DNA of 30,326 nt from a virus: positions 1-30,326 of the IMG/VR virus record IMGVR_UViG_3300049024_000110; one strand, 5' to 3'. Positions 25,131 to 30,326 of the stretch are shown piece by piece; the first letter of the stretch is position 1, and each line of letters starts with the position of its first letter. Made by a program: the position numbers and the translations under genes. The notes under the pieces are model-generated. The model ran no database searches, was not told where the DNA came from, and was given only the letters and a program-made list of their open reading frames with translations.

Positions 25131-25172
25131 ATAGTTTTTCTTTGGGGGTTACGATTGCGGGTGAAACTATAT

Positions 25173-25208
25173 AACATTTGTTCTATTTCATAACAACATT
25201 TGTTCTAT
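25173..25208. promoter_or_regulatory. Two identical AACATTTGTTCTAT sites 22 bp apart in a divergent promoter region
   Basis: Copies at 25173-25186 and 25195-25208 are identical over 14 bases and two helical turns apart. The core AACAnnTGTT is an inverted repeat. They lie in the 106-base gap between the scaffold gene (leftward) and the 25237 ORF (rightward). They probably bind a phage or host regulator or form part of late promoters; which strand is controlled is not clear. Confidence 0.5.
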
Positions 25209-25213
25209 CGCAT

Positions 25214-25224
25214 TTTTTTGGGTA
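25214..25224 (+). promoter_or_regulatory. TTTTTTGGGTA element, candidate promoter part
   Basis: This 11-mer recurs at 26429-26439, also upstream of a plus-strand gene. It may be part of a promoter. It also resembles ordinary T-rich sequence, so confidence is low. Confidence 0.25.
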
Positions 25225-25236
25225 TTTTGAACCGGA

Positions 25237-25536
25237 ATGATTAAAGCGCATCAAGTAGAAAAGCGGTTGATGATTAGCTCGGTGGAGCTCTATGATGCAC
25301 TTGATCGAGAAACAAAGAAGTACTATCTCTGGACAACCAGATACATAGCAAACAATCAATCCCTTGAGAGCCCGAGGGATTTTTTTTTACATCCACAAAG
25401 ACGCCGGCACAGGAAAGATTTTTACCTATCGATCGCCTTGGCGAAAAGCCTTCTAATCCGCGAAGGGACGATAATATCTAAACAGATCCGTTACTACATT
25501 GAGGACAATATTGAGCGAACCGCTCGGATTTCGTAA
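25237..25536 (+). CDS. Small hypothetical protein, 99 aa, containing an intrinsic terminator
   Basis: Not recognised. It is basic (Arg/Lys-rich), helical in prediction by eye, with Tyr-rich central residues (KKYYLWTTRYIANN) and a C-terminal amphipathic helix (RYYIEDNIERTARIS). It could be a small DNA- or RNA-binding protein. The coding status is uncertain because a strong intrinsic terminator (25358-25389) lies across codons 41-51. Either this is a short transcript with no product, or an attenuated gene. It is followed 23 bases later by the CAP-like secreted protein on the same strand. Confidence 0.45.
   Translation: MIKAHQVEKRLMISSVELYDALDRETKKYYLWTTRYIANNQSLESPRDFFLHPQRRRHRKDFYLSIALAKSLLIREGTIISKQIRYYIEDNIERTARIS
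25358..25389 (+). terminator. Intrinsic terminator inside the 99-codon ORF (attenuator candidate)
   Basis: AATCCCTTG and CGAGGGATT form a stem of nine pairs including one G-T, with a 6-base loop, followed by nine T. A transcript starting near 25220 would end here at about 170 bases. Confidence 0.6.
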
Positions 25537-25559
25537 ATTGTGGAAAACGAACTCCACAC

Positions 25560-25934
25560 ATGAAATTTCTGATCATTTTCTTGTTTTTGCCGATCTTCGG
25601 CCTTGCTCAGAATGTTGAATCACGCCAGGCTTTTTTGGCAATCAATGGCAAGAGGTCTGAGCTGAAACTTCGGAAACTTTCATACTCGTCGGACAAGCAA
25701 ACGGAATGCGATGCGCAAGCTGTCTTGTACAGCATCGGCCAGGAGAACAAGTTATCGTGTGATGGTTGTCTGGATGAAATAAAGTATGAAGCAGGATCCA
25801 TGTCAGATCTCCTGAAGAAGATCATAGACCCGAAAGCCAAGCATATGGCGGAAGATCAGACCGGAGTCACAGTCTCTGTGATGGTCATCGACTCAAAATA
25901 CTTCGCAGTAATTCGAACGCAAAAGCCGTTTTAG
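25560..25934 (+). CDS. Small secreted CAP-like (SCP) protein, 124 aa
   Basis: Residues 1-16 form a signal peptide (KFLIIFLFLPIFG core, LA before Gln17). The 108-residue mature part loosely follows the CAP/SCP fold pattern: an N-terminal helix 'FLAINGKRSELKLRKLSYS', an 'ECDAQAVLYS' helix, then 'IIDPKAKHMAEDQTGVTVSVMVIDSKYFAVIRT' with strands at the end. Three Cys residues in the middle could form a disulfide. It is shorter than usual CAP domains and the usual His/Glu pocket is incomplete, so the assignment is tentative. A late-expressed exported protein in a virion gene island may act on the host envelope or the surroundings. Its stop is directly followed by an AACATTTGTT site. Confidence 0.5.
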   Translation: MKFLIIFLFLPIFGLAQNVESRQAFLAINGKRSELKLRKLSYSSDKQTECDAQAVLYSIGQENKLSCDGCLDEIKYEAGSMSDLLKKIIDPKAKHMAEDQTGVTVSVMVIDSKYFAVIRTQKPF

Positions 25935-25949
25935 AACATTTGTTATAAT
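25935..25949 (+). promoter_or_regulatory. AACATTTGTTATAAT site before the structured RNA
   Basis: Starts the base after the CAP-like stop codon. It combines the AACAnnTGTT dyad with TATAAT. If it acts as a -10-like element, transcription would begin about 25955 and cover the pseudoknot element. Fifth copy of the motif in the window. Confidence 0.4.
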
Positions 25950-25954
25950 TTTCT

Positions 25955-26117
25955 TCTGCTTTTTGTTGCGTCGTAAGCCGCACAATCCTTATTTGCCCAG
26001 ACTATCACGTACCAGCGACAAACGAAAAGATCTTATCAGAGGTCCCATGATCGTTTGTCGTCGGTAACAACGAGGTTCGTGATAGTCCCTCAAAATGGGC
26101 CTCTGATTTCTTTTTAC
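25955..26117 (+). ncRNA. Candidate pseudoknotted structured RNA, about 160 nt
   Basis: No gene is found here. Four helices can be drawn. H0: 25963-25970 with 25979-25985. H1: 26000-26009 with 26078-26087, ten perfect pairs, plus ACC/GGT at 26011-26013 and 26074-26076. H2, nested: 26016-26025 with 26051-26060, ten perfect pairs. H3: 26035-26048, in the H2 loop, with 26095-26107, thirteen pairs and one bulged T. H3 crosses H1 and H2, giving a pseudoknot, and is followed by TTTCTTTTT, so it could also serve as a terminator. So many long perfect helices in 160 bases strongly suggest selection for RNA structure. No known family recognised; a tRNA, tmRNA or riboswitch does not fit. Confidence 0.55.
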
Positions 26118-26339
26118 ATACAATTGGTTTTGCAAGACTTATTGAACCAGTGATGCACAACAGGCGTCACGAAAAAAAAGTATCGTTCAGGGGAATGCGT
26201 GAAATCCGGGTAGATCAACCGACTATCGAACCCGGTCATCTGAAGCCGAAAGGTAACAAGTAGCGCGGTCTGTACAGAGCAGAGGTTTCCCCCTGCTTCG
26301 GTAGAAGCCTTTCTGATGTGAAGTAAAAGAAAGGATTAG

Positions 26340-26387
26340 TTCTCAGAATATGTATCAACGCTGCAAAGGTAATACATATTCAGAGAA
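26340..26387. repeat. 16-bp inverted repeat, one mismatch, 16-base spacer
   Basis: Arms 26340-26355 and 26372-26387 match at 15 of 16 positions (core AGAATATGTAT / ATACATATTC). Could be a hairpin of the non-coding RNA, a protein-binding dyad, or a terminus scar. Confidence 0.6.
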
Positions 26388-26428
26388 GAAGGGTCGGTAT
26401 GCCCATACATCAACAACTTTTCACTCAC

Positions 26429-26439
26429 TTTTTTGGGTA
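26429..26439 (+). promoter_or_regulatory. TTTTTTGGGTA element before the 194-aa gene
   Basis: Same 11-mer as 25214-25224. TAGATTTC 12 bases further on resembles the Bacteroidota TAnnTTTG promoter element with one mismatch, but the spacing is poor. Low confidence. Confidence 0.25.
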
Positions 26440-26526
26440 ATTACAACAAATAGATTTCACGTGATTTGAATCCTTATAGATCGCCAACATGGCGGCTTCG
26501 ATTGTTCAACTTAACAACAAATCTTT

Positions 26527-27111
26527 ATGCAAATCTTCTTAACCGCCAAATCAAAGAATGGCGACAATTATGTGAAACCACGTGTGGTGATCGTGGATCC
26601 AGCAAAGATCTCAATGACTCCTGTTTCAAAATCTGGCGGGTACAGTCAGGGACTTTGTCGGGTCGAGGAGAAATCAGGTAATTCTGTTGATGTGTATTAC
26701 GTGTACGAGTCTCCAGCAGAGATCAACGCACAAATCTTGATGAATGAAGGCCAGGCGACAGGACTTCTGGCAAAAAAATTCATCGATCTCAGTATCGACG
26801 CGGCTGGTGCTACCGCTGCAGCTGCCGCTGATATCGTGAAGTATTTCACTGAAATCGACACAGCGACCGCTACAACAACTGATGGTTATCAGCTTCCCGC
26901 AGCAACTGTTGGCAAAGTATGCGTTGTCTACAACACTGTTCCTGGTGCAGGAGGCGCCGGTATTGCGTTGGACGCGTGGCCACAGACAGGTGAGAATTTC
27001 CGCGGACTTGCTGACGATGCAACATTGCAACACGCGGTGAATATTCGTAAGCATTACGTTTGCTTGGAAGCAGGCACCTGGGATGTTGCGGATGACTTCA
27101 CACAGGCATAA
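26527..27111 (+). CDS. Putative virion decoration or head-fibre protein, 194 aa
   Basis: Residues 1-110 are mixed beta/helix (a PRVVIVDPAKISMT start, VYYVYESPAEINAQILMNEGQ helix, Ala-rich stretch at about 95-118). Residues about 120-194 follow the pattern 'TTTDGYQLPAATVGKVCVVYNTV...ALDAWPQTGENFRGLADDAT...CLEAGTWD', a small beta domain common in phage capsid decoration and fibre-tip proteins. It is the only clearly virion-type gene on the plus strand. It is followed by a strong plus-strand terminator and, beyond that, the converging portal operon. The exact part of the virion is unknown. The start was chosen as the ATG giving the longest frame; an upstream ATG at 26489 is out of frame and gives only 17 codons. 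Confidence 0.6.
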   Translation: MQIFLTAKSKNGDNYVKPRVVIVDPAKISMTPVSKSGGYSQGLCRVEEKSGNSVDVYYVYESPAEINAQILMNEGQATGLLAKKFIDLSIDAAGATAAAAADIVKYFTEIDTATATTTDGYQLPAATVGKVCVVYNTVPGAGGAGIALDAWPQTGENFRGLADDATLQHAVNIRKHYVCLEAGTWDVADDFTQA

Positions 27112-27145
27112 GCATTTTTTGCGCTGTTATTTGCCGCAGCGTTTG

Positions 27146-27175
27146 AACCCGAGCAGAAATGTTCGGGTTTTTTTA
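27146..27175 (+). terminator. Intrinsic terminator after the 194-aa gene
   Basis: AACCCGA (27146-27152) pairs with TCGGGTT (27163-27169), 10-base loop, then seven T. Ends the plus-strand island. Confidence 0.8.
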
Positions 27176-27180
27176 TTGCC

Positions 27181-27210
27181 AAATAAAAAAGGCCTGAGTG
27201 ATCAGGCCTT
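27181..27210 (-). terminator. Intrinsic terminator of the portal operon
   Basis: On the minus strand AAGGCCTGA and TCAGGCCTT pair around a 4-base loop, followed by TTTTATTT. It faces the plus-strand terminator six bases away, isolating the two units. Confidence 0.8.
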
Positions 27211-27235
27211 GACGCGTAAGTTGAACGATGTGAAC

Positions 27236-27754
27236 TTAACGGCGTGAATATGGTAAGTCAGTCTGTGGTTGCTTGCGTATGCAAGTGATTTGACCAACAG
27301 CTGTAATACGGATCTTACTACAAGGGATAGGCACTACTTCACCAACTGCATAAGTCTTTGCGATCAATGTTGCTGCATCGATATTAGGATCATCAGGAAC
27401 CAATTCAGAGAACACTAATCCTGTTGCTACGTTCACGATGAAACCTTCACAGTCAAGCGCTACAATGAGGTTGATGTTTCCGGCTGCAGTAACACCGAAG
27501 GTTCCATCTGCGATGAATGTGTTTGCATCGATCACTTTTTTCACCTTGTGAGCCGTATTGGCGTAAGCGCCACCAGATGTGATCCAGAAGCTTTGATGCT
27601 TCTTCAGACCATGGCCCGCGGCGGTGATGATTATCTGGCCGGTACCACCATCAGCGATCACAGTATATGCGATCGTGCGCTGTCCAACTCCAATGACATC
27701 AACACCCCTTGTTGACATCAAGCTTGCGAGATTTTCTTCAGTTAATTTTAACAT
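27236..27754 (-). CDS. Small beta-rich virion protein, 172 aa
   Basis: Residues 1-22 are helical; 25-110 form a beta domain with a GHGLKKHQSFWITSGG...GAYANTAHKVKKVIDANTF motif, like the small beta barrels found in phage decoration and fibre proteins. Residues 110-172 contain more strands and a short basic tail. The start lies 6 bases after the portal stop, so it is co-translated with the portal. In phicrAss001 a head-fibre gene follows the portal, so this may be a counterpart; similarity is not shown here. No signal peptide. Confidence 0.55.
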   Translation of the reverse strand: MLKLTEENLASLMSTRGVDVIGVGQRTIAYTVIADGGTGQIIITAAGHGLKKHQSFWITSGGAYANTAHKVKKVIDANTFIADGTFGVTAAGNINLIVALDCEGFIVNVATGLVFSELVPDDPNIDAATLIAKTYAVGEVVPIPCSKIRITAVGQITCIRKQPQTDLPYSRR

Positions 27755-27760
27755 GATATA

Positions 27761-30163
27761 CTAAGGTTTTGATGTTGCTGGTTGTGGCTTTGGTTTCGAC
27801 TTCTCCTTCGCGATATCCATCTGTCCCTTCAAGAGTGCCATTAGAAGTTCATTGACACGTTCCGCTTCCCCTTCTTTCAATTCAGCACCCTTGAGGATCA
27901 TCTCATGTAGGAATTTCCGATCATCCTCCTGTTTCTTTTGCTGCTTATCGAATTCCTTCTCGGCCATCTTCTGCTGGAATTCCATCTGCATGGACTTCTG
28001 TTTAGCCTGCTCTGTTGCGACAGCGGTCTTCGTGTTCTCTTCACCCTGGACACGCATAAGATTTTCTTGCTTTGCCGCTTCACGATTTTCACGTTCAATC
28101 ACATGCTTCCGGATCATCAGGATCTGGCGATAAGGATTCTCCACCATCTCGATCTCAATAGCTTTCTCTCCTGGTATCTCTTTATTGGTGACCATCAAAT
28201 TCAAGATCGCTGATATCTTTTCCTTGACTTTATCGTCCGGACCTTCTTCAAGAATGATACCCATATCGATGAGTGGGAGATCCCGATTCAGCATAAAATA
28301 CTTGTAGCTTTCCATACCAAGCGACTCGCTGATGATAGCAGGATTCATCCGCTGGACATTGTTCTGCAGCAGGTAGAACATATTTTTTCCTGACTTCTCG
28401 TAGATGGTTTTGTAAGCCTCAAGGATGTGTGACATCGCATTGTCGGAGGCATTGAAAGCCAGTTGTGCCACTTCTTTACCGGTACGCTCAGCCGGCGTCC
28501 CTCCTTCTGAAAGAACGTTGAGACCAACCATATCCCGGGCTTGATCAATCCACTGCTTCATCAAAACCAAGTGATCGCTTGCTCCCTGAGACAGTCCATT
28601 GACTAATTCCTCAAATGGTTTTGTATTTAGTGGCGAATCGTGTTGATCATACCCATCGTAGATAAAGCTACCTGTCTCTGCATACATCTCAAGAGCCTTC
28701 TTGGGATCTAATTTTGCATTTCCTTTGCCAGTACGAGCAAGGGCCTTCTTCTCGATCGCAATGCCAGGCGGCTTTGATTGAGATGAGTGACTCTGATACT
28801 GCAAGTAGTTTAATTGAACCTGGTCCGCGGCCTGCTCAATCATTCCGATTGTGCTGATGAAGTCGGTTGAAACTAATACAACAGGAAGAACAGTTTCTTG
28901 CCAGTCAGTTGCAGGACGCAACATGTTCGTCATTAACCCATAGCTGTAGCAATATTCGGTATCAACGACCCAAGTGCCTTGATATACGTTGCGTACTTCC
29001 GTTCGATAAATCCTTTTCTTGCCCTCGAATTTTTTATTGAATTCGTCGTCGGTCAATCCCTTACCATCATTGACAGAAGCATCGCCCAGGAATGGAACGT
29101 AATTTGGAGCCTCGGTCTTTGTTCTGGTGTTTCCAGATGAATTCTTGTATTCAACATTGACCTCAGAATCGGTCGTTAAATACAGTAACTCAAATACAGT
29201 AACCTTCTCATGATCGTACGCATAGGAATATGTTCCGGAATTGTAATGTTCACTGTACTTTCCAATATAACCATTCCCACCGCGAGCAACAGATGTTTTG
29301 TGAGCAATGTCCTTCAACTCCTCCTCCTTCAAATTCTTTGCTTCCCTGCGTAACTGTGAGATAGTTTTCTCAAGGTACTCGCCAAAGCGAATCATATCGC
29401 GAAAGTCTGGAAGGACACAATGATTGGTGACTGATCGATCGATCATCACCCGCCGTGACTTTATTTTCCCGTTGACATCAATGTATTGCCGGGTACCACC
29501 AACGCCATAGTCAAAAAGATCTCCAACAATTTCTTTCTTCTCCTGCTTCCAGTTAGAATCCTCAAATGCTTTTTCCAGCATGTCCAACACCTCCATTGAA
29601 GTGATGTCTTTTGGGTTCATCTCGATATAAGGATCAATCTCTGCTGCTGAAGCCGGTGGTACTTCACCAGGAGGAATTGGACGTTCAAGACCAAGTCTTG
29701 CAAGTTGCTCGAAGCGCTCAATCTCTTCTTTGTTTACGATGAATTCCAGAAGTTTAGATCTGTACTTCTGCTTTGCACTGATACTTTTCGGATCAATTGC
29801 TCGAGCTCTCATCCGGAGCGGGATAGAGATAATTTTATTAACAGCTGAGTTCCTGATACGCGGTACCACCTTCAGGATCTCGTAATTGATATTACGGAAC
29901 GAGTGGTTAGGGACGTCGCCTTTTTCTCGCTTCAAACCCATAAGTTCCTTGTACTGCAATTGGCTTTGTTCGCCACGTGCGTACTGCTTGTAGCGTTTGA
30001 GGTTCTTATTGTTCCGGCACAACGAAACATCCATTGGGCCATGGGCAGCTTCCTCATGAAAAGCTTTCGCGTACTTTAAAAAGTAATCTTTGGTAGCCTT
30101 TACCGACGATGGAACAAATTCGTTCGGAAAGCTATTGATGCCGTTGCTCTTGATTTCGTTCAT
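27761..30163 (-). CDS. Portal protein, crAss-like
   Basis: An 800-residue protein with the length and features of crAss-like portals. The N-terminal part has many basic and aromatic residues (YKELMGLKREKGDVPNHSFRNINYEILKVVPRIRNSAVNKI). A helical clip/stem region lies near 400-600 (TISQLRREAKNLKEE at about 265, GMIEQAADQVQLNYLQYQSHS near 440, KQWIDQARDMVGLNVLSEGGTPAERTGKE near 530). A long charged coiled coil makes up the last 110 residues. It forms the dodecameric ring at the special vertex through which DNA is packaged and ejected. The ATG overlaps the stop of the preceding gene (ATGA), as in terminase-portal pairs. No break or missing section is visible. Confidence 0.85.
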   Translation of the reverse strand: MNEIKSNGINSFPNEFVPSSVKATKDYFLKYAKAFHEEAAHGPMDVSLCRNNKNLKRYKQYARGEQSQLQYKELMGLKREKGDVPNHSFRNINYEILKVVPRIRNSAVNKIISIPLRMRARAIDPKSISAKQKYRSKLLEFIVNKEEIERFEQLARLGLERPIPPGEVPPASAAEIDPYIEMNPKDITSMEVLDMLEKAFEDSNWKQEKKEIVGDLFDYGVGGTRQYIDVNGKIKSRRVMIDRSVTNHCVLPDFRDMIRFGEYLEKTISQLRREAKNLKEEELKDIAHKTSVARGGNGYIGKYSEHYNSGTYSYAYDHEKVTVFELLYLTTDSEVNVEYKNSSGNTRTKTEAPNYVPFLGDASVNDGKGLTDDEFNKKFEGKKRIYRTEVRNVYQGTWVVDTEYCYSYGLMTNMLRPATDWQETVLPVVLVSTDFISTIGMIEQAADQVQLNYLQYQSHSSQSKPPGIAIEKKALARTGKGNAKLDPKKALEMYAETGSFIYDGYDQHDSPLNTKPFEELVNGLSQGASDHLVLMKQWIDQARDMVGLNVLSEGGTPAERTGKEVAQLAFNASDNAMSHILEAYKTIYEKSGKNMFYLLQNNVQRMNPAIISESLGMESYKYFMLNRDLPLIDMGIILEEGPDDKVKEKISAILNLMVTNKEIPGEKAIEIEMVENPYRQILMIRKHVIERENREAAKQENLMRVQGEENTKTAVATEQAKQKSMQMEFQQKMAEKEFDKQQKKQEDDRKFLHEMILKGAELKEGEAERVNELLMALLKGQMDIAKEKSKPKPQPATSKP

Positions 30164-30326
30164 GAGTTAAAAAATTGATTACAAAAATCTTCGCTGTCAA
30201 AATCATTGTAGTCGCCATCATCAGAGGTAGACGGTAACAACCGGCTCTGATTGCCACTAATATCATAGCGACGGAAGTATTTAGATACTAAGTCCTCTGT
30301 TTTTTGGGTATTCCACTGATAGTAGT
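30160..30326 (-). CDS. C-terminus of probable large terminase subunit (partial)
   Basis: One open frame reads in from the right edge and ends at TGA 30162-30160, giving 54 residues with a KYFRRYDISGNQSR segment and an acidic tail (DDGDYNDFDSEDF). The stop overlaps the portal ATG. In crAss-like and many other tailed phages the gene before the portal is the large terminase, so this is most likely its C-terminal end. The ATPase and nuclease domains lie outside the window, so the call rests on position. Confidence 0.5.
   Translation of the reverse strand, partial: YYQWNTQKTEDLVSKYFRRYDISGNQSRLLPSTSDDGDYNDFDSEDFCNQFFNS

Follow-up and report, generated by a model that had tools for sequence, protein, structure and literature searches.

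Small RNAs encoded in antirepressor islands are already known from the phages P22 and P1. The immI region of the temperate phage P22 (ant, arc, mnt and the sar RNA) is an antirepressor island with a small RNA, embedded in the late genes, and sar acts as a cis-antisense RNA to ant. In P1/P7-type phages, the C4 antisense RNA is a small RNA in the unit of the antirepressor gene. For temperate crAss-like phages, on the other hand, the decision between lysis and lysogeny is, to our knowledge, little understood. Phages and prophages also encode the large ornate RNAs GOLLD and ROOL (PMC12286853).

Here, we analyze a structured element, a putative small RNA, at positions 25955-26117 (plus strand) of a viral DNA stretch of 30,326 nucleotides, called the window in the following. 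We will argue that it is a phage-encoded structured small RNA of ca 100-160 nt with its own transcript, most likely regulatory and controlled in the same way as an antirepressor gene, a reading to which we assign an about even chance. The locus resembles P22 immI in that a small RNA and an antirepressor gene share an island among late genes, and, as for sar and C4, the RNA is encoded next to the antirepressor gene, here in two phages. Unlike sar, it is encoded by the strand that also carries the AntA-like gene, to whose start region it shows no complementarity. It differs from C4 in being downstream of the gene, in showing no antisense pairing with the antirepressor start, and in having no Rfam match. 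With GOLLD and ROOL it has in common that it is a structured non-coding RNA of bacterial viruses to which no function is assigned, but it is much smaller (about 100-160 nt) and again has no match in Rfam. What would be new, compared to these systems, is thus an RNA outside the Rfam families.

The window is a contig of a crAss-like phage with portal and capsid genes. The portal protein matches phrog_6547 at 4e-59 and is 23-25% identical, over 90% of its length, to that of Cellulophaga phage phi38:1 (Pervagoviridae) and relatives, the matches at this level coming from Cellulophaga, Flavobacterium and Maribacter phages. The capsid protein is 22-25% identical to those of the same crAss-like relatives. 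With these portal and capsid matches, the phage is assigned to the crAss-like phages (order Crassvirales), whose members are recognized by homologous portal, capsid and terminase proteins. A contig from the same sample, IMG/VR 3300049023_000163 (G001, here contig 163), agrees with the window at every position of 25134-30326 apart from a 30-bp insertion, and is probably a continuation of the same genome. It carries two tyrosine-integrase-like genes, which make it probable that the phage is temperate, and two DNA methyltransferase genes. The latter lie at L087 8374-10212 and 5938-7893, and the first of them shares 66% identity with the homologous gene of G398, the relative described below, a value much higher than those of the structural genes.

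The element is part of a plus-strand island whose orientation is the reverse of that of the late genes and which separates their portal side from their scaffold/capsid side, with the order AntA-like gene, 124-aa ORF, RNA and p194. The AntA/AntB-like antirepressor gene (25237-25536, 99 aa) matches PF08346 with E=0.0011, below the cut-off, and has a homologue in the relative. The 124-aa ORF (25560-25934) has a signal-peptide-like start, while p194 (26527-27111) encodes a 194-aa protein without assigned function that is conserved in the relative's island. A terminator scan places an intrinsic terminator that closes the island at 27145-27170 (plus strand), and another one, which stops the minus-strand operon of the portal side in front of the island, at 27189-27210. 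These terminators isolate the island. It also contains a second structured hairpin at 26340-26387 (plus strand, z -5.5), recognized from its fold and from the comparison of the contigs. Its counterpart in the other contig lies at L003 about 1200-1300, where the exact 30-nt insertion creates a three-way junction at the apex and leaves the main stem unchanged. Inside the AntA-like ORF, a terminator-like hairpin with nine T (25358-25381) is followed by GATTTTTTTTTACATCCA, which resembles GATTTCTTTTTACATACA following the helix called H3 below.

Given the portal/scaffold location beside p194, one could imagine a pRNA-like role in packaging, an RNA of the virion or an assembly factor, and the position next to the head genes is indeed kept in two phages. 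This option is nevertheless very improbable, as the island, set off by terminators, has the reverse direction of the late genes and an antirepressor-like gene at its start, and Rfam returned no resemblance to the phi29 pRNA. The initial annotation had left packaging or capsid assembly, regulation of late genes and host targeting all open; the surroundings, i.e. the AntA-like gene and an operator-like motif, now favor regulation over packaging or host targeting.

The two perfect ten-pair nested helices and the thirteen-pair helix crossing both of them that had been described for the element are present. The outer helix H1 is formed by 26000-26009 and 26078-26087 (GACTATCACG/CGTGATAGTC), and nested in it is H2, formed by 26016-26025 and 26051-26060 (CGACAAACGA/TCGTTTGTCG); both consist of 10 perfect base pairs. 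H3 connects 26035-26048, within the H2 loop, to 26095-26107 (ATCAGAGGuCCCAT/ATGGGCCTCTGAT), with 13 pairs and U26043 bulged. Dinucleotide shuffling of the 30-kb window, repeated 600 times, never produced the 10+10 bp combination of H1 and H2, and a relaxed trio with arms of 8, 8 and 7 was seen 15 times in the 600 shuffles. When loop and tail were shuffled 20,000 times with H1 and H2 given, 17 shuffles reached the pairing of H3. The fold z-score of 25955-26117 is -4.3 on the plus strand, compared to -2.8 on the minus strand. H3 can be extended by a further helix, H4, in which GAAAAGA (26024-26030), an A-tract overlapping the end of H2, pairs with TCTTTTT (26109-26115) of the T-run. The minimum free energy fold contains in addition a small 5' hairpin, P0 (25963-25985), and the segment GCCCA (25995-25999), which competes with H3 by offering TGGGC 26096-26100 another pairing partner. 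The coding potential of the element is limited to short ORFs (≤51 aa), none of which matches any family.

In terms of energy, the best fold is nested, at -50.8 kcal/mol, and consists of H1, its TACC/GGTA extension, H2, and GCCCA paired with TGGGC. The pseudoknot including H3 was estimated at between about -40 and -51 kcal/mol, a value that changes with the penalty used and with whether TACC/GGTA is retained, and at this level of modeling the pseudoknot is not clearly favored over the nested fold. It is also important to consider the geometry. H1 and H3 are joined by a linker of 7 nt, which by our own geometric estimate would not reach across a straight stem of ca 25 bp, so that the full pseudoknot needs a bend at the internal loop of the stem, which is asymmetric with 6 and 17 nt. 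The three helices may form at once, and the full pseudoknot is putative. The earlier proposal of a discrete RNA of about 160 bases is retained as regards a structured RNA, which is syntenic in the relative and has a promoter there, while its pseudoknot is not clearly favored in energy.

When H3 is instead forced to form a nested hairpin, it extends into H4 with a total energy of -40.3 kcal/mol. As nested folds, H1/H2 and H3/H4 are mutually exclusive (-50.8 vs -40.3 kcal/mol), and H3 and H4 together are terminator-like, although with a long loop. The element could therefore also be a cis-acting leader of p194, in which H1/H2 and H3/H4 with its U-run are the antiterminator and terminator forms that govern read-through. 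Consistent with this are the sequence TTTCTTTTT directly 3' of H3, the competition of GCCCA with H3 for TGGGC, and the fact that, in both phages, the next gene of larger size is p194. However, the terminator scan made no call at H3/H4, p194 starts about 410 nt downstream in the window and about 500 nt downstream in the relative, and the latter, in which a hairpin is inserted between the 3' strands of H3 and H4, has not kept the U-run terminator. We thus consider a p194 leader unlikely. The T-run that had been noted downstream of the element does exist (26107-26115), but it is able to pair with the A-tract 26024-26030 and the relative lacks it.

For the RNA itself, one relative proved informative, IMGVR_UViG_3300046791_000283 (L206/G398, 79 kb), which was found by a capsid scan, so the comparison is one of two sequences. 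Its capsid, terminase and portal proteins are 55%, 49% and 45% identical to those of the window, with general synteny. At the same place, and again on the opposite strand, it has an island with an AntA-like gene, a structured non-coding RNA stretch and a p194 homologue, and without the 124-aa ORF. The AntA protein of the relative scores above the PF08346 cut-off (32 bits) and aligns with that of the window at E=4e-8 and 29% identity. The non-coding stretch has a fold z-score of -6.2 on the island strand vs -4.0 on the other, with energies of -59.9 and -45.9 kcal/mol, respectively, and the fold of the island strand makes use of G-U pairs.

A local alignment of the two RNA cores (p=0.005) puts the H3 strands of the window on the strands of a long hairpin in the relative, and the A-tract on the closing stem of that hairpin. 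In the common core hairpin (H3 and H4), 17 homologous pairs are kept, 4 of them with changes on both sides, which are the compensating changes that the initial annotation had proposed to look for in a homologous intergenic region, here seen in one relative. When H3 and H4 are threaded onto the relative, the resulting score is reached by 2 of 1500 shuffles, and the site is the best of 304 windows in its genome. With H1 added, none of 1200 shuffles reaches the score, and the site is the best of 698 windows; both this type of score and the final alignment were devised with the pair already in view. With H1 included, the alignment comprises 23 pairs, of which 16 are unchanged, 6 have two-sided changes, 1 has a one-sided change and none is broken, but as its paired strands were excised and joined by hand, it is a count of pairs and not an independent test. 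A single-sequence covariance model of H3 and H4 missed the relative when the whole genome was searched; in the syntenic stretch of 1.2 kb, it ranked the L206 site first, at E=0.24.

On the basis of this comparison, the conserved part would be H3 extended by the A-tract/U-tract helix H4. H2 has no counterpart in the relative and thus appears to be specific to this phage. For H1, there is a possible 6-bp counterpart with 2 two-sided changes, but its 5' strand, GGTCTAC, overlaps the relative's promoter and would not be transcribed from it, which makes H1 insecure as a conserved helix. A complement of the H1 3' strand recurs downstream in both phages, as a second GACTATC at 26221-26227 (plus strand) in the window and, in the same arrangement, as GGTCTAC at position 352 of the relative's spacer. 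This downstream 7-mer is possibly an alternative partner of the H1 3' strand. It could be argued that the inverted repeats of a non-coding spacer arose by chance and have no RNA function, in particular as there is just one distant homologue. The shuffle tests in both phages, the conserved position and strand, and the core hairpin kept with two-sided changes make this explanation quite improbable.

We also searched for a promoter of the host type (Bacteroidota), defined as TTTG-N18-21-TAnnTTTG. A perfect TTTG-N19-TAnnTTTG is located upstream of the RNA in the relative, and it is the sole one in the 79 kb, counting both strands; the pattern occurs in 44 of 3000 shuffles of the non-coding stretch. 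In Flavobacterium, the -7 box TAnnTTTG is found at -12 to -5 (PMC9723704), which places the start at L206 983 (minus strand). This is the first base of the closing stem, and the predicted RNA of ca 116 nt would be closed by its own ends (983/868, minus strand). A promoter at the start of the RNA points to transcription.

This bears on another alternative, namely that the inverted repeats are a DNA-level element, i.e. a site at which a protein binds or recombination takes place (operator, replication or packaging site), and that the RNA fold is incidental. The repeats fold on the other strand too, and palindromic operator-like sites are found nearby. The island strand, however, folds more strongly in both phages, most clearly in the relative, the helices are kept through two-sided changes rather than by sequence, and the relative's promoter argues for a transcript. 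A purely DNA-level role therefore seems to us rather improbable.

In the window, no consensus promoter was found upstream of the RNA, just an operator-like motif with TATAAT. The promoter-like TATAAT of the earlier description is present, at 25944-25949, but has neither a -35 box nor the Bacteroidota -33 box. It is situated inside the motif AACATTTGTTaTA, which is repeated at the control regions of the phage; the copy upstream of the RNA is AACATTTGTTATAAT (25935-25949, plus strand). The motif, AACATTTGTTCTA, is near-palindromic and occurs twice before the AntA-like gene (25173-25207, plus strand, by motif comparison), once before the RNA, and at two further control regions of contig 163, its core always being oriented toward the downstream gene. 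It is probably an operator or promoter of the phage. The sites of the form TAGAACAtTTGTTCTA are 25173-25207 and 25935-25947 in the window, L088 9361-9441 and L087 14426-14492. Adjoining one of these clusters is an 83-aa ORF (L087:14514-14765, plus strand), which may be a candidate regulator acting via the motif; it has no Pfam match, and we take it to resemble a small DNA-binding protein. The sole perfect TTTG-N-TAnnTTTG promoter of contig 163 is at L087 14904, and the stretch downstream of it has no convincing gene and an ordinary fold (z 0.2).

At the gathering threshold, Rfam release 15 (4227 families) gave no match across the whole window, and at a relaxed threshold the hits were at chance level, the element scoring E 2-9 and the relative E 4.4, in agreement with the initial annotation, in which no family had been recognized. 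A blastn search of the island against phages and plasmids gave no meaningful match. Among the viral contigs scanned with the H2 stem pattern, the phage's own contig alone had H1 and H3 as well, and in 1.07 Mb from distant portal relatives the same architecture gave chance-like AT-rich matches only. A search of 1.1 Mb of loci with a covariance model of H1 and H2 detected no relative, and the model gave a single hit when run on 395 Bacteroidota genomes, a host hairpin that has neither H1 nor H3.

Two known modes of action were also considered. An HDV-like ribozyme, suggested by the crossing topology, was rejected, since a P3-like hairpin is missing from the relative and Rfam gave no ribozyme match. 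An antisense effect on the start of the antirepressor gene is not supported either, the start region ranking 3411 of 6482 in duplex energy. Without such complementarity, a mode like that of P22 sar or P1 c4 is unsupported.

Taken together, the result of the Rfam search, the syntenic structured RNA with two-sided changes and the promoter in the relative make a discrete structured RNA in the plus-strand island well supported at the level of sequence. That the element is transcribed, and that it acts as a regulator, we infer, the latter from its neighbors. In the reading that we prefer, the RNA would be made as a separate transcript from the opposite-strand island that also carries the AntA-like gene and p194, and its conserved core would be a long hairpin consisting of the closing stem H4 and H3. 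In this phage, the enlarged loop of the hairpin would pair with a 5' extension via H1 and H2 to give a pseudoknot. The RNA would be under the same control as the antirepressor gene and could take part in a lysis-lysogeny or early-late switch. A bolder version, which we put forward only tentatively, is that of a new family of pseudoknotted regulatory RNAs in the antirepressor islands of temperate crAss-like phages, in which either the 5' arm or a receptor located downstream would enter the loop of the conserved closing hairpin and thereby switch phage gene control.

If true, this would add an RNA family that is missing from Rfam. A conserved small RNA beside an antirepressor gene, with its likely ends defined, would also offer a concrete handle on lysis and lysogeny in crAss-like phages.
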